From Candidatus Omnitrophota bacterium (lineage in GTDB: Bacteria; Ratteibacteria; UBA8468; B48-G9; JAFGKM01), in assembly GCA_023819375.1 (NCBI GenBank), contig JAMWDI010000003.1, positions 1-64,000 on the forward strand: a DNA stretch of 64,000 nt, written 5' to 3'. Both the position numbers and the translations under genes were made by a program. The notes below the pieces were generated by a model. That model saw nothing but the letters and a program-made list of their open reading frames with translations. It made no database searches and was not told where the DNA came from. This document shows positions 48,251 through 60,808 of this stretch, one piece after another; position 1 is the stretch's first letter; every line of letters begins with the position of its first letter.

Positions 48251-49000
48251 ATGAGATTTTTAGTAAAATTTCTTTCTGAAAAAGAAGTCCCTCTTCCTCT
48301 AAATATTAGAAGTTTTTTTATTTCGTTTATAAAAAAGACCTTTGAAAGTGAAGATAAGAATTTTTATAGGATTTTATTTGAAAATAAAAAAGCAAAACCA
48401 TATGTTTTTTCTCCATTTTTTGGTAAAGAATTTGAAAAGGGAAAAGTGGGAAAAGATATTTCCTTTATTTTTTCAAGTGGGGATTTTAAAGTAATTTCAA
48501 ATTTTTGGAATGGGCTAATAATTTTAAAAAAGAAAAAAGAAGACTTTATAGAAATAAAAAATGAAAAATTTTATTTGAGAGATATTAAACTTTTGCCAAA
48601 TAAAAAAATAAATAGTGGAAGGATTCTTCTTAAAACTATCGGGATTTCAGTTCTTTCAAATCCTGAAAGTTCTGCGAAAAATTTTAAAGAATGGTATATA
48701 ATTCCAGAAAGAGAAAATATGGAAAAATTCAATGAAATTTTGAGAAAAAGAACAGAGGAAAGGATAAAATTTATAGAGGGGATTGATAGGAAAATAAATC
48801 TTAAATTTTTATTTTCTGACAATTACGAAAATTCAATTAATGAGACAATTGTTCCACATTATAATGGATTTGTAAGAGGTTTTAGAGGGATATTTATTTT
48901 AGAAGGAGATATTGAAGTTTTACAGTTTTTGTATGACTATGGCTTTGGAGTGAGGACAGGACAAGGCTTTGGTCTTCTTGAAATAGTAAAAGAATTATGA
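48251..49000 (+). CDS. cas6: CRISPR RNA endonuclease Cas6
   Basis: 249 residues, two ferredoxin-like halves as in Cas6. The C-terminal glycine-rich stretch (NGFVRGFRGIFILEG, then YDYGFGVRTGQGFGLLEI) is the Cas6 signature. A catalytic His is not obvious from family alignment; His in VPHYNG is one candidate. It cuts the pre-crRNA in the repeat to leave an eight-base 5' tag, here expected to be ATTTAAAC. It is the first gene of the operon and overlaps the next gene by four bases (ATGA). Confidence 0.9.
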   Translation: MRFLVKFLSEKEVPLPLNIRSFFISFIKKTFESEDKNFYRILFENKKAKPYVFSPFFGKEFEKGKVGKDISFIFSSGDFKVISNFWNGLIILKKKKEDFIEIKNEKFYLRDIKLLPNKKINSGRILLKTIGISVLSNPESSAKNFKEWYIIPERENMEKFNEILRKRTEERIKFIEGIDRKINLKFLFSDNYENSINETIVPHYNGFVRGFRGIFILEGDIEVLQFLYDYGFGVRTGQGFGLLEIVKEL

Positions 49001-49317
49001 AAAAACATTTAATAAACGAAACAAAAATTAAAAATAAATTAAAAGGTGTACTTTCAGGTTATGATATTGACAGAATTTCTTTCAAAAGAGATAAAAGATT
49101 AATTATTGAAAATGTTTTAAATCATGGCCGAGATAAAGAAATAAAATGGGTTTTGAAAAATTATAAAAAGGATGACATTATTTCTGTTCTTAAAAATCCA
49201 TCAAAGGGCTTCTGGAACAAAAAATCATTGAATTTCTGGTTAACTATATTTAATGTAAAAATTGAAAAAGAAAAATATGAAAGAGCAATCAGAAAAATCA
49301 TTTTTGAAGCCAGATAA
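48997..49317 (+). CDS. DUF6922-like small protein, probable antitoxin partner
   Basis: 106 residues, basic, helical. It resembles the small proteins that precede AbiEii-type nucleotidyltransferase toxins, with the pattern LNHGRDKEIKWVLKNYKKDDIISVLKNP and KSLNFWLTIF. In such pairs it is the likely antitoxin, although that is inferred from position. Its start overlaps cas6 and its end overlaps the toxin remnant, so it is translationally tied to the cas operon. Confidence 0.65.
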   Translation: MKKHLINETKIKNKLKGVLSGYDIDRISFKRDKRLIIENVLNHGRDKEIKWVLKNYKKDDIISVLKNPSKGFWNKKSLNFWLTIFNVKIEKEKYERAIRKIIFEAR

Positions 49318-49667
49318 TACTGAAATTTTAAGTAAGCATCAGAAAGAAATTCTAAAATTACTTGATTTTACAAAAAAATTTAATTTTTATCTTGCTGGTG
49401 GAACAGGACTTGCTTTATATTTAGGGCATAGAAGTTCAATTGATTTTGATTTTTATACAGAAAAAAATTTAAAGATTTATCAATATATTTTAAAGAAGGA
49501 GAAATAGTAATGAATTCTGAAGATACTTTTGAAATAATTTTAAAAGAGATAAGTCAGCCAAAGAAAACGAAAAAAGAATTAAAATATTTGAAAATGTGAA
49601 ATGGGGCGATATGAAAAAATTTATAAAAAAAGAAGTTGAGTTATTCTTGAAGAAGGAGATAAAATGA
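49277..49667 (+). pseudogene. Broken AbiEii/AbiGii-type nucleotidyltransferase toxin gene
   Basis: The first frame (ATG 49277 to stop 49507) reads LSKHQKEILKLLDFTKKFNFYLAGGTGLALYLGHR and SIDFDFYT, the GG-x-A...DxDF core of the AbiEii nucleotidyltransferase fold. Near 49490 the sequence continues in another frame as FKEGEIVMNSEDTFEIILKEIS, the next conserved segment. After a deletion of most of the middle, the C-terminal piece KIFENVKWGDMKKFIKKEV follows and its stop overlaps the cas8b start (ATGA). The gene was once complete and coupled to cas8b, and is now inactive. Confidence 0.75.
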
Positions 49668-51451
49668 ACGACAAAATTATTCTCTATCCCTCAAACTGGC
49701 TCTACAACGCCGGAGTAGTCGGTTTTTTAAGAATACTAGAGTTTGCAGGAAAGGGAGATACTTTTGAATTTAAAGATGATGGGAGTGTTGAGATACAGAA
49801 AGTAGCATTGGATAATTTTGAAATTTGCTATTTCGAATACGTCTCCAAGTTATATTTAATACAAAGATTTTCTTTAAAAGAGCTGACAAGTTTTGTTAAA
49901 AATCTTAAGAATAAAGGGAGCGAGGAGGAGAAAAATGAAATAGGGAAAGTAGAAAGCAAAGTAAAAGAAAGCGAAAATGAAATTCAGAATAAAATTCTTA
50001 GTGTTAATGCGAATAAAGATTGGAATGGTTTTGCAAAAATGATATACGAGATACAAAATACTTTGTCTCAAAAAATCAATGAAATTAAGGAAGAATTAAA
50101 AAATATCCTTAAAAAAGAGACAGACAAAAAGATAGAACAAAACATTAATAAGATTGAGAAAAATTTTAAGAAAGTTTTTAATTCCATTTTTGAATTTAAA
50201 GCTCAAGCTGATTTTTTGGGTAATTTTTATTTTAACAAAAGTGAGGTTGCAAATCCAAAAGGAAGGAGATTAGAAAGATCCCAAAAATTTAAGGAAAAGT
50301 ATTTACTTCCTGTAATAGGATCTAAATCTGGAGATATATTATGTATCTTTTGTGGTAATAGATATTCCGAAGAAAATATTTCAGAACTTGCTGAGGGAGA
50401 TTTTTCTATTTTGGGTATCAGTAGTAAAAAATTTGCCAATTTCTATAATTATTACAGCAAAAATGGTATTTCTTACAATAGAAAATGCTCCTTATGTCAA
50501 TTAATTCTTCTTTGTGCATTTGCAGGTTTTAATTTGAAACCATTTTCACTTAGAGAATTGGATGAAACAGATTATATTTTTGTGAATTATCCGTCTTTCA
50601 AAGAAGCATTTAATGTGAACAATAAAATTCAAGAAGAATTTAAAAACTACCAGTTTGGGACAATGGGTGAAAAAATTAACACCTATATGAAATCCCTTGA
50701 ATTAATCTTAACTATTTCAGAAAAAAAGACAAGATGGTTATTGGAAAATACTTACTTTGCAGAAATAAAGACATCGCCGAATAAGAAAGAAGGAAAACCT
50801 AAATTTGTATATTTCAATATTGATAAAGCATTTGCAGAGGTATTTAATGAATTTGATATTGGTAAACTTTTCAAGGATCTTTCATTCTGGTATGAGGTTT
50901 ATAAAAATAATAGAGTATATCTTTCAACTGAGATATTAAAAAGATTGTTAGAGAAAAAACCTTTAATTTATATTGCTTTTAAAATGTTCTCGGAGAAAAT
51001 CAGGGATAAAGATACTTACATGCTTCCTATATGGAGCATAATTTTATTAGAATTTTTGATAAACCAAAAAAGGAGGTTAAACATGGATGCTAAAAAATCG
51101 TATGGGATATTAAAAAGTATCCAGGAGGAGGGCAGGAGGAGTTTTTCTCTTGAGGAGATTGATAAGGACAAGCGATTTCATATTTCTCAAAGGTTCTTAA
51201 CATTAATTAGAGGAGCCAGAAAGGAAGATTTTTATAATGAACTTCTAAGGCTTTTTGTAGTATATGAAAAACCTGTTCCAGAAACTCTTTTTTCATTGTT
51301 AACAGAAAGTGAAGAAATTTCCTTTCAAGAAAAAGCCTTAGCTTTTTTAACAGGATTTATAAATCCTGAAGAAACAGAAATTTTAGAGATAAATAAAAAG
51401 GAGGAGGTGAAAAATGAAGAGGCCATCTCTAACAATAACTTATATTGTTAA
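49664..51451 (+). CDS. cas8b: Type I-B Cascade large subunit Cas8b (Cst1, CXXC-CXXC)
   Basis: 595 residues. The N-terminal IILYPSNWLYNAGVVGFLRIL and the two Cys pairs CIFC (residue ~226) and CSLC (~275) are the signature of the Cst1/CXXC-CXXC family that serves as large subunit in the Tneap branch of type I-B. The Cys pairs likely bind zinc. It recognises the PAM and helps load the target by analogy. A helical C-terminal part (~440-580) may supply the small-subunit role. GAAGGAGATAAA precedes the ATG. Confidence 0.9.
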   Translation: MNDKIILYPSNWLYNAGVVGFLRILEFAGKGDTFEFKDDGSVEIQKVALDNFEICYFEYVSKLYLIQRFSLKELTSFVKNLKNKGSEEEKNEIGKVESKVKESENEIQNKILSVNANKDWNGFAKMIYEIQNTLSQKINEIKEELKNILKKETDKKIEQNINKIEKNFKKVFNSIFEFKAQADFLGNFYFNKSEVANPKGRRLERSQKFKEKYLLPVIGSKSGDILCIFCGNRYSEENISELAEGDFSILGISSKKFANFYNYYSKNGISYNRKCSLCQLILLCAFAGFNLKPFSLRELDETDYIFVNYPSFKEAFNVNNKIQEEFKNYQFGTMGEKINTYMKSLELILTISEKKTRWLLENTYFAEIKTSPNKKEGKPKFVYFNIDKAFAEVFNEFDIGKLFKDLSFWYEVYKNNRVYLSTEILKRLLEKKPLIYIAFKMFSEKIRDKDTYMLPIWSIILLEFLINQKRRLNMDAKKSYGILKSIQEEGRRSFSLEEIDKDKRFHISQRFLTLIRGARKEDFYNELLRLFVVYEKPVPETLFSLLTESEEISFQEKALAFLTGFINPEETEILEINKKEEVKNEEAISNNNLYC

Positions 51452-52319
51452 GGCATTTCCATGTAATTATGATGAAGGATATGGAAATGTCTCTGTAGCA
51501 AAGAAAGTCCATAGAGGAAGTGGAGAAACATATCTTTTTACATCTCGTCAGGCATTGAGATATTCTATAGTGAATTGGTTAGTAGAACACAATATATGGA
51601 AATATGCACAATTAACACCAGCTGAGGGTGTAATACAATATACTCCTGATCAATTAATAAAAGAATTTCCAGAAGAAGCGGATATTTTTGGCTATATGAT
51701 AACTACTGGAAGAAAACAACAAGCACAAACAAGAGCAGCAGTTGCCAAATTAACACATTTGATTTCTCTGGAACCATGGTATGGTGATCAGGAGCTTCTG
51801 ACAAATAAAAATTTTGCGGATAGATTAAAAAGAAATCCTGATATGGCAAACATTGAAACGGGATATAATTATTACAAATATACCCTTTCCGTTGATTTAG
51901 ATAGAGTTGGTGAAGATGAGAATTTCAACCATCATCTCACAAAGAAAGAAAAAATAAAAAGAGTATGCGACTTGATAGAAGCAACTAAATTTTTATTTCG
52001 CGACATACGAGGAAAAAGAGAAAGTTTAATACCTCTCTTTATAATTGGTGGAGTATATCATATAAAATCTCCATTTTTCCATAACGCTGTAAATATAGAG
52101 TTTAAAGGTTTTAAACCTTACATAAAATGGGAAGGAGTAAAACAAGTCCTTGAAACAGAATATAAGATTGATGAAAAAAATAAAATAAAAATAGAAAATT
52201 TCACATTCAAAGGAATCCAAAAAGGAGAATTTGGTGACGATTTGGGCATTAATGAATCCCCTTTTGAGATTTTGGACAAAATTAAAGAGGAGGTAGTAAA
52301 GGCATATAATGAACAATAG
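51414..52319 (+). CDS. cas7: Cascade backbone protein Cas7 (Cst2/DevR family)
   Basis: 301 residues, start at ATG 51414 after GGAGGTGAAA, overlapping the cas8b end by 38 bases. LTITYIVKAFPCNYDEGYGN, KVHRGSGETYLFTSRQALRYSIVNWL and the C-terminal LIPLFIIGGVYHIKSPFF fit DevR/Cst2 Cas7. Multiple copies coat the crRNA spacer. Confidence 0.92.
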   Translation: MKRPSLTITYIVKAFPCNYDEGYGNVSVAKKVHRGSGETYLFTSRQALRYSIVNWLVEHNIWKYAQLTPAEGVIQYTPDQLIKEFPEEADIFGYMITTGRKQQAQTRAAVAKLTHLISLEPWYGDQELLTNKNFADRLKRNPDMANIETGYNYYKYTLSVDLDRVGEDENFNHHLTKKEKIKRVCDLIEATKFLFRDIRGKRESLIPLFIIGGVYHIKSPFFHNAVNIEFKGFKPYIKWEGVKQVLETEYKIDEKNKIKIENFTFKGIQKGEFGDDLGINESPFEILDKIKEEVVKAYNEQ

Positions 52320-52998
52320 AATAATAAAACTCAAAACATTCCAGGAAAAAGCAGTTTTTAGGGTTCCATACTCAATGGAAGTAATAGAGACTTATCCATT
52401 ACCACCTTATTCTACAATTCTTGGTTTAGTTCATAATGTTCTTTCAAGTTTAACCATCATAAATGATATAAATATTTCTGTTCAAGGTAAATATGGGAAT
52501 TTAGTTCGCGAGTTTGTCAGGTATCACAAATATGAAAAAGATAAAAAGGAAGGGAAGCGCTATCCTATTATTGTTACATCTTTAATTGATCTTGAATTGA
52601 TAATTCATATTAAAATGCCAAATGAAGAACTTCACAGTAAACTTTTATGTTCTCTTTCAAATCCTCCTTACTTTTTATATCTTGGAAGTTCAGAAGATTT
52701 AATAATTGAGATGAAAGTTTGCGAAAGTGAAGAAAGTGAACTTGATCCCTTAGAAACAGAAAAGGGTGGAATAACTCTTCCATATAATTGTTATATACCT
52801 TTTGGAATTGCTCAGGATTTAGAATTAGATGGAATACCTTATTTGATACCTTCTTACTATCGACTTTTATCAAAATCTACAAAAGAAATCTTTAGAAATT
52901 TTGAAATGATAAAAGTCAAATATGCTCATGCAGGACAAACAGTTATAAAAAAATTAATAGTGGATAAGGATGGAATACCAATATGGTGGATGAAATAA
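52309..52998 (+). CDS. cas5: Cascade protein Cas5 (Cas5t/Cas5h type)
   Basis: 229 residues. The N-terminal FQEKAVFRVPYSMEVIETYPLPPYSTILGLVHNVL is typical of Cas5, which caps the 5' tag of the crRNA and touches Cas8. AGGAGG precedes the ATG. It overlaps cas7 by 11 bases and cas3 by 16. Confidence 0.92.
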   Translation: MNNRIIKLKTFQEKAVFRVPYSMEVIETYPLPPYSTILGLVHNVLSSLTIINDINISVQGKYGNLVREFVRYHKYEKDKKEGKRYPIIVTSLIDLELIIHIKMPNEELHSKLLCSLSNPPYFLYLGSSEDLIIEMKVCESEESELDPLETEKGGITLPYNCYIPFGIAQDLELDGIPYLIPSYYRLLSKSTKEIFRNFEMIKVKYAHAGQTVIKKLIVDKDGIPIWWMK

Positions 52999-55199
52999 TG
53001 GATGGAATAATAGCCAAATCATATCCTCAAAAGACATTGAAAGAACATACTAAAGATGTTATGAATTTATTTGATGAGTTAAAGAGATTAAGTGATAAAT
53101 TGGGTATAAAACTTGCAGAAGAGGATTGGAAGACATTGGAGTTAGCGTGTTTTTACCATGATTTTGGTAAAGCAAATTCGGTTTTTCAGAAAAAGATCAC
53201 AAAATCTCTCAATCTTTCAGATATCCCACATAATTTTTTATCAATCTTTTTCTTACAAAATAAAAATGAGATGCTTTTAAAACTTGTGGCTTTCCATCAC
53301 TGGAGAGATTTTCCTGATTTAAGAGAAGAGATGATAGAGCAAATTCGTGGTGATATTTCCTGCTATATTTCAAAAATACAAGAATATTTCAATAAATCTT
53401 TCAACTTAAGGAAAAGTCTTGAATTCAAAAAAGATTTGGAAAAACTTCAGAGATATTATTTTCGTAGAATAGATGGAAGCATTGATTTAAAAAAGGAATC
53501 CAAATTCATTATCCTTTTGGGTTTATTAAATAGAATAGACCATTCAGCCTCTGCTGGAGTTCCAGTTGAAATCGAGCCAATCAATAAATATGAAATAACT
53601 CAAAATTTTTTGCTAAAGAAGACTGCCGAACCATGGCAGTTATCAGAATTAAGTAAAGATTATAAAGATAAGAATGGAATTGTTACAGCATCTACTGGAA
53701 TGGGTAAAACAGAAATGTCTTTATTGTGGAGTAATTCCCAAAAGACTTTTTATACCCTACCTGTAAGAACCTCGGTAACTGCTATGTTTAGAAGATTGAA
53801 GGGACTATTTGGAGAGAAGAAAGTTGGATTGCTTTATTCAGATGCATTAAGCAATTTATTTCTTGAGGAAAACAAGTTATCAACAGATGATATTTTCTAT
53901 CATTATGATATAGCTAAAAATTTATCTTATCCATTGATAGTTTCTACAGCTGATCAAATTTTTACTGCAACTTTGAAATATTTAGGTTTTGAAAAAATTT
54001 ATGCAACCTTATCTTATTCAAGAGTTATAGTTGATGAGATACAAGCCTATTCACCGCAAACGATGGCTATAATAATTCATGGTTTAAATGAGATAGCTTC
54101 TATAGGTGGAAAATTTTTGATAGTTACAGCTACTTTTCCATCTTTCGTAAAAGATGAACTTCCACTTGATTTCTCAATAACTAAAATTCCAAATTTAAAA
54201 AAACATAATGTTAAGTTAGTGGATGAACCTTTAGCAGAAAATACCATAATAAAAAAACTACTATCAAAATTAATAAGCAAAGGAATAGGTAAAATTCTAA
54301 TTGTCTGTAATACTGTTGAAAAAGCCCAAGAGTTATATAAAATTTTAAAAGATTTAAAAGAATTTTCACCCTTATTACTTCATTCCAGATTTACGCGGTT
54401 TGATAGGAATTTTAAAGAAAATACTGTGCTAAGAGAAAATTTTAATGGAATTTTAATCTCTACTCAGGTTATTGAAGTTTCTCTTGATATTGATTTTGAT
54501 ATTTTAATCACTGAAATGGCTCCTTTGGATGTTTTAGTACAAAGAATGGGCAGAATTTATAGAAGATTTAAAAGTGATGGTGAATTTTATCCTTCAGAAC
54601 CTAATGTGTATATTTTTACAGAAGACCCTTCAGGAATTGGAACAGTTTATGAAAAGGAGATTATAGAAAAATCTAAAGATTTTCTAAAGAGTGGAATCTT
54701 ATCTGAGAAAGATAAGTATCAAATGACAAAAGAATTTTATTCTAAAAGGAATATACAAAATACAAAATATTGGACAAAATTTAATAATGCGCTAAATGGT
54801 ATTAAATCCTATTCAGTTAATAAAAAAACAGAGGCGCAGGAAATATTTCGTGATATAAGTCAAATTGAGGTTATTCCTCAAGGTTTGTTAGAATATGAAG
54901 TTCAAAATGAAAGAATACTAAAGAAACTTGGTTTTGACAAAGGGCCTTTTAGAAACGTTATTGAAAAAATAAAAATAGAAGATAGAAAAGAAAAAATCTT
55001 ATTTATAGAATTGATCAAAGATTTTATGGTACCAATTCCTCTTTATAGAATTAAAAAAAATTTTTTATCTCTTTGTAATTACATCCAAAATAGTAAACTA
55101 AAAGAATTTTTAACCAATGTTAAAGTAGTTGACTATAAATATAATAATGAATTAGGGCTTTTATGTGAAAAAGACGAAGACGCTATGGGAATTATTTAA
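52983..55199 (+). CDS. cas3: CRISPR nuclease-helicase Cas3 (HD + DExH)
   Basis: 738 residues. The N-terminal HD nuclease has the HD in CFYHDFGK (residue ~57) and AFHHWRD further on. The helicase has Walker A STGMGKTEMS (~236), DEIQAY (DExH box, ~350), VTATFPS (motif III) and QRMGRIYRR (motif VI, ~520). It unwinds and shreds target DNA recruited by Cascade. The start could also be the in-frame ATG at 52998. All catalytic motifs are intact, so the interference module looks functional. Confidence 0.94.
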   Translation: MVDEIMDGIIAKSYPQKTLKEHTKDVMNLFDELKRLSDKLGIKLAEEDWKTLELACFYHDFGKANSVFQKKITKSLNLSDIPHNFLSIFFLQNKNEMLLKLVAFHHWRDFPDLREEMIEQIRGDISCYISKIQEYFNKSFNLRKSLEFKKDLEKLQRYYFRRIDGSIDLKKESKFIILLGLLNRIDHSASAGVPVEIEPINKYEITQNFLLKKTAEPWQLSELSKDYKDKNGIVTASTGMGKTEMSLLWSNSQKTFYTLPVRTSVTAMFRRLKGLFGEKKVGLLYSDALSNLFLEENKLSTDDIFYHYDIAKNLSYPLIVSTADQIFTATLKYLGFEKIYATLSYSRVIVDEIQAYSPQTMAIIIHGLNEIASIGGKFLIVTATFPSFVKDELPLDFSITKIPNLKKHNVKLVDEPLAENTIIKKLLSKLISKGIGKILIVCNTVEKAQELYKILKDLKEFSPLLLHSRFTRFDRNFKENTVLRENFNGILISTQVIEVSLDIDFDILITEMAPLDVLVQRMGRIYRRFKSDGEFYPSEPNVYIFTEDPSGIGTVYEKEIIEKSKDFLKSGILSEKDKYQMTKEFYSKRNIQNTKYWTKFNNALNGIKSYSVNKKTEAQEIFRDISQIEVIPQGLLEYEVQNERILKKLGFDKGPFRNVIEKIKIEDRKEKILFIELIKDFMVPIPLYRIKKNFLSLCNYIQNSKLKEFLTNVKVVDYKYNNELGLLCEKDEDAMGII

Positions 55200-55501
55200 A
55201 AAATTTTGATTAGATAACTTTATTCATTTAAATGAATTGAGAATTATATGTATTCAAATTGTGTATTGTATTATTTGCCCAAAAATCATAATTATTTTTG
55301 TGTCAAATACAGATATAAAATTTTTTTATTGTAATGATGTTTCAAATTTGTTCAATTATATTTTAAATTTTTGTTATGAATTTGTAAAAAGGAAATGACA
55401 GAAAGGTAAAATCTATGCAATATCAAAAATATAAAGGTTCTGAAGTTGATTTTGTTCTTAATGGAAATTTGCTTTTGAGGTTAAGTAATAAACTATGATT
55501 T
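55200..55501 (+). other. Scar between cas3 and cas4 with palindrome and DUF4143-ATPase remnant
   Basis: 302 bases with no intact gene. ATTCATTTAAATGAAT (55222-55237) is a perfect 16-base palindrome just after cas3. Near 55420-55498 a frame reads YQKYKGSEVDFVLNGNLLL before a stop, which matches the C-terminal nuclease-like region (EVDFV) of DUF4143 AAA ATPases. This is the 3' scrap of a lost mobile or defence ATPase gene. No strong promoter for cas4 was recognised. Confidence 0.55.
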
Positions 55502-56014
55502 ATGATTGAATTAATTGAAGAAAGAATAACAGGGACACAGGTTGCTTATTATATTGTATGTAAAAGGAAGTTGTGGCTTTTTTCTCATCAGATACAAATG
55601 GAAGAGTTTTCTGATTATGTGATAATTGGAAAGATTATAAGTGAGGAAAGTTTTAAAAGAGAAAAATATAAAGAGGTAAATATTGAAAATTTAAAAATTG
55701 ATTATATAAAGGTTGGAAATGAGATAATAGTAAATGAAGTAAAAAAATCAAGAAAACTTGAAGAAAGTCATATATGGCAGGTGAAATATTATATTTATAG
55801 GTTAAGGAATTTAGGTTTGAATTGTTCTCGCGGCATAATACATTATCCAAAAATTTTTAAAAAGATTGATGTTGAATATAAAGAAGATGATACTGAAAAA
55901 ATTGAAGAGGCACTATTAAAAATAAAAGAAATTATAAATATGGAAAAGATACCAGAGGTTATAAATAAACCATATTGCAGAAGATGTTCTTATTTTGAAC
56001 TTTGTTATATATGA
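55502..56014 (+). CDS. cas4: CRISPR adaptation exonuclease Cas4
   Basis: 170 residues, a Cas4a-type RecB-family nuclease. The first cluster Cys is in YIVCKRKLWLF and the last three in CRRCSYFELC, which would hold an iron-sulfur cluster. Nuclease residues include the Glu-x-Lys in VNEVKKSRK and Gln in HIWQVKYYIYRL. It trims prespacers and checks the PAM with Cas1-Cas2. It overlaps the frame of cas1 only if cas1 used an upstream TTG. Confidence 0.93.
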   Translation: MIELIEERITGTQVAYYIVCKRKLWLFSHQIQMEEFSDYVIIGKIISEESFKREKYKEVNIENLKIDYIKVGNEIIVNEVKKSRKLEESHIWQVKYYIYRLRNLGLNCSRGIIHYPKIFKKIDVEYKEDDTEKIEEALLKIKEIINMEKIPEVINKPYCRRCSYFELCYI

Positions 56015-56018
56015 AGAC

Positions 56019-56990
56019 ATGAAGACATATTACATTTTTTCTAATGGTGTTTTAAGAAGAAAGGAAAATACGATTGTTTTTGAGACAACTGGTGGTGAGA
56101 AGAAGTTTATCCCGGTTGAAAATATTGAGCAGATTTTTGTTTTTGGAGAAGTTGATTTTAATAATAAATTTTTAAATTTTATAGGTCAGAATAATATATG
56201 CCTTCATATTTTTAATTATTATGGATGGTATTCAGGAACATTTTATCCAAGAGAGACAAATATTTCAGGGGATTTAATTATAAGTCAGGCAAGTTATTAC
56301 ATAGATTATGAAAAAAGGATTAATCTTGCCAAAAAATTTGTTGAAGGGGCAATACATAATATAAAAAGGAATTTACAAAAAAGAGATGGTTTTAAGAATG
56401 AAGAAAATCAAATAACTGAATATGAAAATCAAATAAAGTATGCAAAAAATATTAATCAACTTATGAGTATAGAGGCACATGTAAGAAAATTGTATTATGA
56501 TTGTTTTGAAAAATTGACTGGTTGGAATTTTGAAGAAAGGACTATTCAACCACCTAAAAATCCTCTAAATGCCTTAATATCTTTTGGAAATTCTCTTGTT
56601 TATAGTGTAGTTTTAAAAGAAATATATTTAACACCTTTAAGTCCATTTATAAGTTTCTTACATGAACCGAGTGAAAGAAGATATTCTTTATCTCTTGATG
56701 TTTCTGAAATTTTCAAACCGGTTCTATCAGATAGATTAATTTTAAAATTAATTGATTTAAAAATGATTAAAGAGGAAAATTTTGTAAAGGAAATGGGTGG
56801 TACTTATTTGAATGAAGAAGGTAGAAAAATTTTTGTTGAGGAATTTGATAAACAATTGGAAACAACTATTTTACACAGAAAGTTGAGAAAAAAAGTTAAG
56901 TATAAGACATTGATAAAACTTGAACTTTATAAAATAGTGAAACATATACTTGGTGAAAAGGAGTATCAACCATTAAAGGTTTGGTGGTAA
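56019..56990 (+). CDS. cas1: CRISPR integrase Cas1
   Basis: About 323 residues from the ATG at 56019, four bases after cas4. An upstream TTG at 55995 is less likely. Metal-site residues fall in SIEAHVRKLYYDCF (Glu), SFLHEPSERRYSLSLDVSEIFKP (His, Asp). Subtype I-B style Cas1 sequence. It integrates spacers at the leader end. Confidence 0.95.
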   Translation: MKTYYIFSNGVLRRKENTIVFETTGGEKKFIPVENIEQIFVFGEVDFNNKFLNFIGQNNICLHIFNYYGWYSGTFYPRETNISGDLIISQASYYIDYEKRINLAKKFVEGAIHNIKRNLQKRDGFKNEENQITEYENQIKYAKNINQLMSIEAHVRKLYYDCFEKLTGWNFEERTIQPPKNPLNALISFGNSLVYSVVLKEIYLTPLSPFISFLHEPSERRYSLSLDVSEIFKPVLSDRLILKLIDLKMIKEENFVKEMGGTYLNEEGRKIFVEEFDKQLETTILHRKLRKKVKYKTLIKLELYKIVKHILGEKEYQPLKVWW

Positions 56991-56991
56991 A

Positions 56992-57273
56992 ATGAAAGTA
57001 ATTTTTATATATGACATTGAACTTAAAGAGAAAAAGGACCAAAAAAGATTAAATAAAGTTAAAAAGATTGGAAGGAAATATTTAATACATATTCAGAAAT
57101 CAGTTTTTGAAGGTGAATTAACTGAAAGTCAGATATATAGAATGGAAAATGATGTTTTGAAAGTGATTGATAAAAATAGGGACAGTGTAATCTTTTATAT
57201 TTTGCCTGATGGAGTGAAGTTGGAAAGAAAAATTTTAAGTAATTTACCAGACAAGACTAAAAATGTGTTATGA
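56992..57273 (+). CDS. cas2: CRISPR adaptation protein Cas2
   Basis: 93 residues, a ferredoxin fold starting MKVIFIYDIELKEKKDQKRLNKV, with the core Asp and the IGRKYLIHIQKSVFEGELT strand typical of Cas2. It bridges two Cas1 dimers. It begins one base after cas1. Confidence 0.94.
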   Translation: MKVIFIYDIELKEKKDQKRLNKVKKIGRKYLIHIQKSVFEGELTESQIYRMENDVLKVIDKNRDSVIFYILPDGVKLERKILSNLPDKTKNVL

Positions 57274-57405: not shown

Positions 57406-60400
57406 GTTTCAATCTGCCAAAGAGGAATTTAAACCCCAAGAAGTTAAGAATCTCCTTTCTAAGTATCCCTTCCTGTTTCAATCTGCCAAAGAGGAATTTA
57501 AACCTTTTGCTCCCACGCCTTTTGCTTGCGTTTTGCGTTTGTTTCAATCTGCCAAAGAGGAATTTAAACCCTGTAAGTTTAATTTTCATTTTTCACCTCC
57601 TTCTATGTTTCAATCTGCCAAAGAGGAATTTAAACGAAGTAAAGAAGGACAGCAGCAACAAGGAGTTTGAAGTGTTTCAATCTGCCAAAGAGGAATTTAA
57701 ACGGGAAAGCGAATTACAAGGACATTGTAGCTATTTTGGATGGGTTTCAATCTGCCAAAGAGGAATTTAAACCAACTCGCTGCGGCGGGCGGGCTCTGGG
57801 CATTGTAGTAAGTTTCAATCTGCCAAAGAGGAATTTAAACTTTACTTTTGCCATGCTTTACCTCCTTTCTGTTTTGTGTGTTTCAATCTGCCAAAGAGGA
57901 ATTTAAACGGAAAATATGAATTGTACCCTTGTACTCCAGAGGGAGTTGTTTCAATCTGCCAAAGAGGAATTTAAACAAGGAGGAAAAAGATGAGAAAGAT
58001 TTTAGTAATAACAATGTTTCAATCTGCCAAAGAGGAATTTAAACCCTAAAAAAGTTAAATCAGTAGTTATAAAAATAGAAAAGTTTCAATCTGCCAAAGA
58101 GGAATTTAAACTTAAAGAAATGTTCCCCATTCCACATTGTGTCCCTAACTACGTTTCAATCTGCCAAAGAGGAATTTAAACTGACGGTAATGTGGGGTGA
58201 AAAAGTATCCTCTTTTGTAAACGTTTCAATCTGCCAAAGAGGAATTTAAACATACCACGCACCTCCCCTACTCTTATAAACCCTGCCCTGGTTTCAATCT
58301 GCCAAAGAGGAATTTAAACTTTGAAGTTTTGGTTAAATGACAAGATACAGAATTAACATCGTTTCAATCTGCCAAAGAGGAATTTAAACAAGAAAAAAAA
58401 AAGAAAAAAAAGAGATATAAAAAAATAAGTTTCAATCTGCCAAAGAGGAATTTAAACTTTTTTACCTCCTTTCTGCTTTTTGTTTTGCTATTGTTATGTT
58501 TCAATCTGCCAAAGAGGAATTTAAACAGAAATCTCTCAACAGCATCTCTCTTACCAACATCTCTGTTTCAATCTGCCAAAGAGGAATTTAAACGAAGCAA
58601 GCCCTGTTAGCTGAAATGTCCATTTTTTAAGTGTTTCAATCTGCCAAAGAGGAATTTAAACATACCACGCACCTCCCCTACTCTTATAAACCCTGCCCTG
58701 GTTTCAATCTGCCAAAGAGGAATTTAAACTACGCCAACGGGAGCACGGTAGGGGGGAGTAAAAATAAGTTTCAATCTGCCAAAGAGGAATTTAAACTTGT
58801 TTTTTTCTTGTAATAATTCCCTTTATTCATCTTTGTTTCAATCTGCCAAAGAGGAATTTAAACTCTTGTTCCACTATTCCAAGCAACACGCTCCATTTTT
58901 CTGTTTCAATCTGCCAAAGAGGAATTTAAACATATCTAAGGACATAATGCAATATCAGGATTATTCAGTTTCAATCTGCCAAAGAGGAATTTAAACCTGT
59001 GATTTGTTTGCGTTTTGCGTTTTTCGCTGTTGCGTTTCAATCTGCCAAAGAGGAATTTAAACACCGCTTGATTTCTCGCAGGGCATCTGTAATATGAAGT
59101 GTTTCAATCTGCCAAAGAGGAATTTAAACCCTTTACTTCTTGCGCGGAAATGTAGAACCACATTATGTTTCAATCTGCCAAAGAGGAATTTAAACCTTTT
59201 GCTCCCACGTTTTTTGGTTGTGTTTTGCGTTTTTGTTTCAATCTGCCAAAGAGGAATTTAAACGTTTCCAATTAAGTAGATTTTTTCTGGAGCCATGAGT
59301 AGTTTCAATCTGCCAAAGAGGAATTTAAACCGGTGTGATGCCACTAGCCACACTTTTGCAATTCCCACGTTTCAATCTGCCAAAGAGGAATTTAAACACC
59401 CCTTCCGGAGTGCAGGGGTCCAAATTGTACTTCCGTTTCAATCTGCCAAAGAGGAATTTAAACAAAAGGATTTCAAGTTTCAAAGAAACAGATTGCCTTG
59501 GGTTTCAATCTGCCAAAGAGGAATTTAAACTTGCTTTCAGAATGTGGTTTTTCTGTTTCATTTGAGACAGTTTCAATCTGCCAAAGAGGAATTTAAACGT
59601 GTGTTTTTAGAGAGTGTTGCTTATCAGATTCTGTCTTGTTTCAATCTGCCAAAGAGGAATTTAAACGGCTCTTCTGCTGCTGCACGTAAGCAGTAGTAGA
59701 AGTATAGTTTCAATCTGCCAAAGAGGAATTTAAACTGAAAAAGTGGACATTTCAGATTACAGGCCTTGCTTCCGTTTCAATCTGCCAAAGAGGAATTTAA
59801 ACACAAGGGAGGATGATGTTTTAATTCAATAAGTAGAAGTTTCAATCTGCCAAAGAGGAATTTAAACATCCCACCACGGGGCACCCTTCCCGCCCCTTTT
59901 TTTTTAGTTTCAATCTGCCAAAGAGGAATTTAAACAAGCAACCTGAAAAACTTCAAGATATGTTAAATCTTGGTTTCAATCTGCCAAAGAGGAATTTAAA
60001 CTCCTTTCTATCGTTGGACACCAAGCAACTGCGGAAGTTTCAATCTGCCAAAGAGGAATTTAAACTAAGGGAGAAGATTGTTCAATTTGTGGAGGAAATA
60101 AAAGAGTTTCAATCTGCCAAAGAGGAATTTAAACCGGTGTGATGCCACTAGCCACACTTTTGCAATTCCCACGTTTCAATCTGCCAAAGAGGAATTTAAA
60201 CACCCCTTCCGGAGTGCAGGGGTCCAAATTGTACTTCCGTTTCAATCTGCCAAAGAGGAATTTGAACCCATTAAGTACTGTAGTTTATATGCCTGGTTCT
60301 GGGTGTTTCAATCTGCCAAAGAGGAATTTAAACTTTGAATGGGGGTGGAGGGCAGACTATGAAAGATGGGTATGTTTCAATCTGCCAAAGAGGAATTTAA

Positions 60401-60808
60401 ACGAAGCAATAAAACTTTATGAGAGTATGGAATATGATGTTTCAATCTGCCAAAGAGGAATTTAAACACAAGGAGATTTATGGATAACTATAACACCACT
60501 CTACTCTGTTTCAATCTGCCAAAGAGGAATTTAAACTTCCTGCGGGCACGCGCGGAAATGAAAAGAATTTTAAGTGTTTCAATCTGCCAAAGAGGAATTT
60601 AAACGAGGACGCAGGGGCGACGTTGTACTACGGAACAAGCAAGTTTCAATCTGCCAAAGAGGAATTTAAACAACACATACCGAAGAATCACACCAATCTT
60701 CCGCCCCAGTTTCAATCTGCCAAAGAGGAATTTAAACTTTTTTATTATTTCTCTAAATAATTTTGGAGATTTTAAAATGGTTTCAATCTGTCAAAGAAAA
60801 TTTGGATG
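57406..60808 (+). CRISPR. Type I-B CRISPR array: 50 full repeats, one degenerate terminal repeat, 50 spacers
   Basis: The repeat is 29 bases, begins GTTTCAATCTGCC, has AAAGAGG in the middle and ends AATTTAAAC; GTTT and AAAC ends are complementary. Full copies begin at 57406, 57475, 57541, 57607 and so on to 60709. All were read as identical except the copy at 60239, which has ATTTGAAC at its end. A decayed copy at 60780 (TCTGTCAAAGAAAATT) marks the leader-distal end. Spacers are 35-42 bases, mostly 37-40. Three spacers occur twice: the one at 58252 recurs at 58662, and the neighbours at 59331 and 59398 recur together at 60135 and 60202. Expected crRNA 5' tag is ATTTAAAC. Confidence 0.98.

Follow-up and report, generated by a model that had tools for sequence, protein, structure and literature searches.

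A type I-B cas operon in the 64,000-nt stretch of DNA that we analysed (the window) carries, between cas6 and cas8b, the remains of a DUF6922-AbiEii gene pair. We find it on balance probable that this is a decayed member of a recurrent class of toxin-antitoxin (TA) pairs in type I cas operons, and that the intact pairs of this class make the operon hard to lose.

The decayed pair of the window and a related relic

The window locus is a complete type I-B system, with the gene order cas6-cas8b-cas7-cas5-cas3-cas4-cas1-cas2 and a CRISPR array (Table 1). The initial annotation had placed a DUF6922 gene and an AbiEii remnant between cas6 and cas8b, and profile searches bore this out: the DUF6922 ORF scored 41.6 bits with PF21956 (cut-off, 27) and the N-terminal piece of the toxin 23.1 bits with PF08843, just above the cut-off of 22.5. 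Because the 1.73 Mb assembly yielded no other AbiEii or DUF6922 match, the pair is more than a chance occurrence. Both outer joints are ATGA overlaps, as had been claimed; one joins the stop of cas6 to the start of DUF6922 at 48997-49000, and the other joins the stop of the last toxin piece to the start of cas8b at 49664-49667. Within the pair, DUF6922 and the start of the toxin overlap by 41 nt. Embedded pairs often share such short overlaps with their neighbours and so are probably co-translated with the cas genes. In the array of the window, the segments 59301-59463 and 60105-60267, which hold two spacers each and lie 804 nt apart, are 99% identical and represent a duplication; a further spacer occurs twice, at 58213-58320 and at 58623-58730 (97%).

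Table 1. Positions of the features of the window locus and of the I-A-like operon loci from the same phylum
Feature	Position	Strand	Evidence or remark
cas6	48251..49000	+	PF01881, E 1.2e-18; upstream border of the slot
Open-framed DUF6922 gene (putative antitoxin)	48997..49317	+	PF21956, E 8.6e-11
AbiEii remnant, N-terminal piece, GGT and DFD motifs	49277..49507	+	PF08843, E 8.1e-5; frameshift closes the frame early
AbiEii second piece, other frame, YFKEGEIVMNSEDTFEIIL	49486..49542	+	homology to the G018 relic stops here
AbiEii C-terminal piece, third frame	49557..49667	+	40% over 30 aa to the C-terminus of the L005 toxin
cas8b	49664..51451	+	PADLOC Cas8b, E 2.3e-35; downstream border of the slot
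cas7, cas5, cas3, cas4, cas1, cas2	51414..57273	+	remainder of the type I-B operon (including TIGR02585, TIGR01895)
CRISPR array, about 50 repeats GTTTCAATCTGCCAAAGAGGAATTTAAAC	57406..60808	+	
I-A-like operon, MNT-HEPN	L075 520-867 and upstream		
I-A-like operon, HEPN fragment	L242 5317-5550		
I-A-like operon, nothing at the junction	L074		

Alignment to the intact AbiEii toxins of the same phylum (212-216 aa) confirmed that the window toxin has suffered both a frameshift and a large internal deletion. The toxin lies in three pieces in three frames. The segment from 49277 to about 49480 matches the intact toxin of L005 with 68% identity over 47 aa, and about 95 mid-protein residues are gone, including the second half of the catalytic domain and the second motif block. 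A complete catalytic domain in a single frame, absent here, was found in G017, G026, L086 and L089. The frameshift of the assembled sequence may be an assembly error, but the deletion of about 95 residues would not be explained by one. The window copy is a dead or dying module and, since its toxin is dead, the module there is unable to exert addiction.

In the AbiE type IV systems (AbiEi-AbiEii), the antitoxin is an AbiEi-type protein with a winged-helix DNA-binding domain. The partner of the toxin here matches DUF6922 and no AbiEi family, and we infer its putative antitoxin role only from position and overlap in the sequence. The antitoxin and the cas genes had been described as intact. This holds for the cas genes, all of which have open frames, but the DUF6922 gene is only open-framed; it lacks a Trp residue conserved in 16 of 17 aligned DUF6922 proteins. 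A scan of the genome contigs with the window DUF6922 as query returned no relative. Its predicted model consists of six helices (pLDDT 87), for which no confident PDB match was found. No PDB match thus supported DUF6922 as a DNA-binding protein, although such an absence is not proof. The suggestion that the surviving antitoxin was kept as a regulator is thus unsupported, given the lack of a confident DNA-binding fold match, the loss of the near-invariant residue and the decay of the DUF6922 copy in G018. The window ORF is probably on its way out.

G018 belongs to the genus of G015 and G017, and neither Cas6 nor Cas5 was detected in its genome (79% complete). Beside pyrK, at the site that holds the cas loci in G015 and G017, we found 528 nt with 74% identity to window positions 49019-49536. 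This relic comprises a DUF6922 gene interrupted by stops and an AbiEii piece that breaks off where the second piece of the window toxin does, and the 18-nt sequence directly before it matches the end of the G017 cas6 at 17 of 18 positions. The simplest reading of these sequences would be that a cas operon with a window-type TA pair once stood at this site and has since been lost; we infer the order of the losses. Together, the two relics suggest how a cas operon may become free for loss once the toxin is dead.

Pairs in other cas operons

We searched 35 genomes of the window's phylum for comparable pairs. In G017, cas6 is followed by a DUF6922-like gene (90 aa), an intact AbiEii gene (192 aa) and cas8b. 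In G015, a frameshifted toxin of the same subfamily is followed by an 84-nt leftover of a cas8b start, an intact MNT-HEPN pair and the working cas8b. This remnant of a second cas8b (L051 8757-8840), about 38 nt of which match the beginning of the working cas8b exactly, is a scar left when effector modules were exchanged at the conserved 5' end of cas8b. Within the window's own genus, G023 carries a 69-aa ORF and a DUF6036-type nucleotidyltransferase in the slot between cas6 and cas8b, and in G026 cas7 and cas5 flank a DUF6922-AbiEii pair that is intact. The slots of G003 and G008 are empty. An I-A-like operon of the same phylum has MNT-HEPN before cas7 in G005, a HEPN fragment at the same junction in G010 and nothing in G009. 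The PF21956 scores of the slot DUF6922 copies in G017, G015 and L089 do not reach the cut-off. DUF6922 and AbiEii also recur together elsewhere as adjacent, overlapping genes, with the gene order reversed in L004-L006. In addition, a 255-aa open frame at L007 967-1734 (G032:C77) combines AbiEii and DUF6922 parts in an apparent toxin-antitoxin fusion.

We collected further cas6 loci in two ways, scanning genome contigs with a Cas6 alignment and searching 395 Nitrospirota genomes with PF01881; they were read by ORF lists and profiles, and the junctions were counted by hand. DUF6922-AbiEii occupies the slot after cas6 in L086, L089, L096, L107 and L205. L096 carries two such pairs in tandem, and the toxin of the second has an internal deletion; the toxin is frameshifted in L107 and deleted in L205. 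In L123 (G045), a Cas6b-type gene and cas1 enclose a DUF6922 gene and an AbiEii gene with a frameshift. The initial annotation had allowed that the pair might be a one-off insertion, but related cas operons do carry such pairs (G017, G015, G023, G026, the Nitrospirota loci L086, L089, L096 and L205, and L107), and the window pair is, as judged from these sequences, not a one-off.

Other slots hold different genes. There is a MenAT1-like pair with an Rv0078B-type antitoxin (PF18993) in L087 of the Nitrospirota, Phd-ParE in L106 and AbrB/MazE-PIN in L212. In the Nitrospirota, the slot after cas6 includes MenAT1-like, Phd-ParE and VapBC pairs as well. ORF6N stands alone in L101 (6774-7298), L110 (6419-6967) and L217, and 23S-IVP, a four-helix-bundle gene, stands alone in L084 (6957-7421), L108 (6834-7286), L100 and L223. 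ORF6N also occurs together with the TA pairs after cas6 in L106 and L087.

A TA pair was present at 12 of 44 junctions between cas6 and the next gene, compared with one of 108 cas8|cas7, cas7|cas5 and cas5|cas3 junctions (p ~1e-6), in a set whose loci are phylogenetically non-independent and which came in part from a scan seeded with the Cas6 of TA-bearing loci. The remaining slots contained an ORF6N or 23S-IVP gene alone (seven) or were empty (25). The Nitrospirota loci alone gave 7/25 against 0/51 (p 2e-4); in several of them, gene order and size served to identify cas8, cas7 and cas5. By a rough gene-share estimate, AbiEii genes occur in cas operons far above chance. A slot placed strictly between cas6 and cas8 was rejected, given the pairs at cas7|cas5 in G026, before cas3 in L205 and between the Cas6b-type gene and cas1 in L123.

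We also compared the decay of AbiEii inside and outside cas loci. Six of 11 copies in cas loci are broken (window, G015, the second pair of L096, L107, L205 and L123), compared with 15 of 158 outside (p 6e-4). The contrast is only suggestive, because the outside copies were judged by frame lengths and stops alone and badly broken ones are harder to find there. Breakage is frequent, which shows that many cas operons survive although their toxin no longer works. DUF6922 is open beside all six broken toxins and decayed only in the G018 relic, a pattern that would be expected if the antitoxin can be lost only after the toxin. At the level of sequence, then, such pairs recur, unrelated pairs share the slot, its content turns over and AbiEii is frequently broken.

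Subfamilies and the role of intact pairs

The cas-embedded AbiEii toxins fall into three subfamilies (a, b and c). Subfamily b (G026, L086, the first pair of L096 and L107) forms a clade with 100/99 support that contains cas-embedded copies only, from the window's phylum, the Nitrospirota and a third small phylum. In the 395 Nitrospirota genomes, only the two cas copies of this subfamily scored above 360 bits, and the next AbiEii scored 164. Subfamily a is mostly cas-embedded, with non-cas relatives in G122 and G010; its exclusivity to cas operons was rejected, as the G122 copy lies between radical-SAM and redox genes and the G010 copy lies away from cas. Subfamily c, to which the window toxin belongs, is nearest to reverse-order pairs elsewhere in the phylum and also has non-cas relatives. 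Between G015 and G017, the toxins are 68% and the cas1 genes 88% identical, yet cas7 is only 31% identical; between G015 and the window, cas7 (77%) and cas8b (65%) are similar, but the TA pairs differ. By these identities, slot contents change independently of the genes around them, and TA pairs and effector modules are exchanged separately at the slot boundary.

No close relative of subfamily a or b was found in viral contigs. Distant AbiEii genes do occur on mobile elements, in one phage record (31.8%) and on plasmid ece1 of Aquifex aeolicus (38.6%). On this plasmid (NC_001880.1; L276 3814-5641), an 82-aa ORF overlaps the AbiEii gene; behind it come an AbrB antitoxin and a PIN toxin whose sequence is divided between two ORFs. 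The gene group is a plasmid parallel of the cas-embedded pairs, and the 82-aa ORF has no Pfam match, including to PF21956.

The predicted model of the intact G026 toxin (pLDDT 91) matches JHP933, MenT1 and MenT4. MenT/AbiEii enzymes add nucleotides to tRNA or target some other component of translation. We propose that an intact AbiEii/MenT-like nucleotidyltransferase, probably with such a target, would be held in check by the co-expressed DUF6922. If the operon were lost or its expression stopped, the toxin would outlive the antitoxin and arrest the cell, and the cas operon would be hard to lose while an intact pair is embedded in it; silencing by a phage would lead to abortive infection instead. 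Addiction appears to be the likeliest role of the intact pairs. We place it slightly ahead of selfish insertion, since subfamily b accompanies cas operons in different phyla and at different junctions. The initial annotation had offered, as one reading of the window pair, a protein-based and partly lost addiction or guard module. A protein module at the CreTA junction is indeed real and recurrent, whereas addiction or guarding of Cas by these pairs is a proposal. Counting against addiction are the ORF6N and 23S-IVP genes at the same junction, which are not known as TA pairs, the 25 empty slots among 44, the non-cas relatives of subfamilies a and c, and the frequent breakage of the toxin. The small intact pairs of G017, G026 and L086 are material on which addiction can be tested. 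It is doubtful, but conceivable, that an AbiEii subfamily and DUF6922 form a more specialised device, a dedicated protein guard found only in cas operons of at least three phyla, which would arrest any cell from which Cas is lost or taken and would have arisen independently of the RNA-based CreTA, mostly at the same cas6|cas8 junction.

The junction after cas6 may also be a tolerant, recombination-prone hot spot that catches small mobile genes, where TA pairs linger by punishing their own loss and render no service to Cas. We consider this a serious possibility, short of probable. The slots with ORF6N or 23S-IVP alone (7/44) are a sign of a tolerant insertion point, and slot content varies among loci with 70-80% identical Cas6 (L087, L089, L106 and L110). 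Effector genes were swapped at the slot boundary too, as indicated by the cas8b leftover in G015, and over half of the embedded AbiEii genes are broken. However, a property of one junction would not explain why subfamily b is restricted to cas operons in three phyla and is also found at cas7|cas5, and the other effector junctions are nearly free of inserts.

The name AbiEii derives from abortive infection systems, and the pair is co-directional with the cas genes and overlaps them, as would suit a back-up suicide in which the labile antitoxin disappears once a phage has silenced host expression or Cas has failed, and the toxin then halts translation. A coupling of immunity and suicide is, moreover, an older idea (PMC3506569). 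Nevertheless, this role seems unlikely, as no creA-like repeat near the slot ties the pair to Cas activity, a plain TA pair is simpler given the embedded antitoxin, and the window toxin is dead. It also seems highly improbable to us that the remaining DUF6922 persists because of a separate function, whether in regulating the cas operon or as an anti-addiction factor that counters newly arriving AbiEii pairs. The open frames beside the six dead toxins would fit such a role, but the antitoxin must outlive the toxin anyway, so that this pattern is the default. The lost Trp of the window copy, the decayed G018 copy and the failure to match a DNA-binding fold also speak against it, and the codon-position differences between the window and G018 copies are too few to decide.

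Comparison with known systems

TA genes in cas loci have been known for years as scattered cases. VapBC and other type II TA pairs are interspersed in the cas gene cassettes of Sulfolobales, for which a maintenance role was suggested (PMC4390879), and Phd, MazE and 23S-IVP genes in bacterial type I cas loci were reported in 2013 (PMC3936711). The pairs described here are likewise protein TA pairs within cas loci. The accessible portions of these two reports make no mention of DUF6922-AbiEii, and our survey adds the cas6|effector preference, the turnover and the cas-confined AbiEii clade.

Also known is CreTA of Haloarcula hispanica, a CRISPR-regulated RNA toxin-antitoxin that separates cas6 from cas8 in a type I-B operon (PMC8501985). 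It has been described as an addiction module and proposed to make the effector genes addictive (PMC12737573), and the same intergenic region contains a strong promoter that serves the cas genes behind it (PMC9458426). The window pair occupies the same location. However, CreTA consists of RNA and needs Cascade and the crRNA-like CreA, whereas both members of the window pair are proteins. A CreTA-like repeat beside the window slot was rejected, because the best match to a creA-like repeat (17/29) was no better than in shuffled sequence (mean best, 17.4), although strongly degenerate repeats could escape this search.

The AbiE and MenAT systems share the toxin family and fold, and the Nitrospirota pair of L087 even has a MenAT1-type antitoxin (PF18993), but the partner here is DUF6922, the pair lies inside a cas operon and the window toxin is dead. 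MNT-HEPN (MntA-HepT) likewise occurs as an intact pair between cas genes in G015 and G005; its toxin and antitoxin are unrelated to those of the window, and it is not the window's pair. DUF6922 was not found by name in the literature searched. Within that literature, and as far as shown here, it is new that DUF6922-AbiEii pairs reside in cas operons, that the cas6|effector junction is preferred, that unrelated pairs replace one another there and that one AbiEii clade is confined to cas operons. If our explanation is true, a preferred slot with rapidly replaced, unrelated pairs at the junction used by CreTA would mean that the keeping of CRISPR by addiction arose repeatedly.
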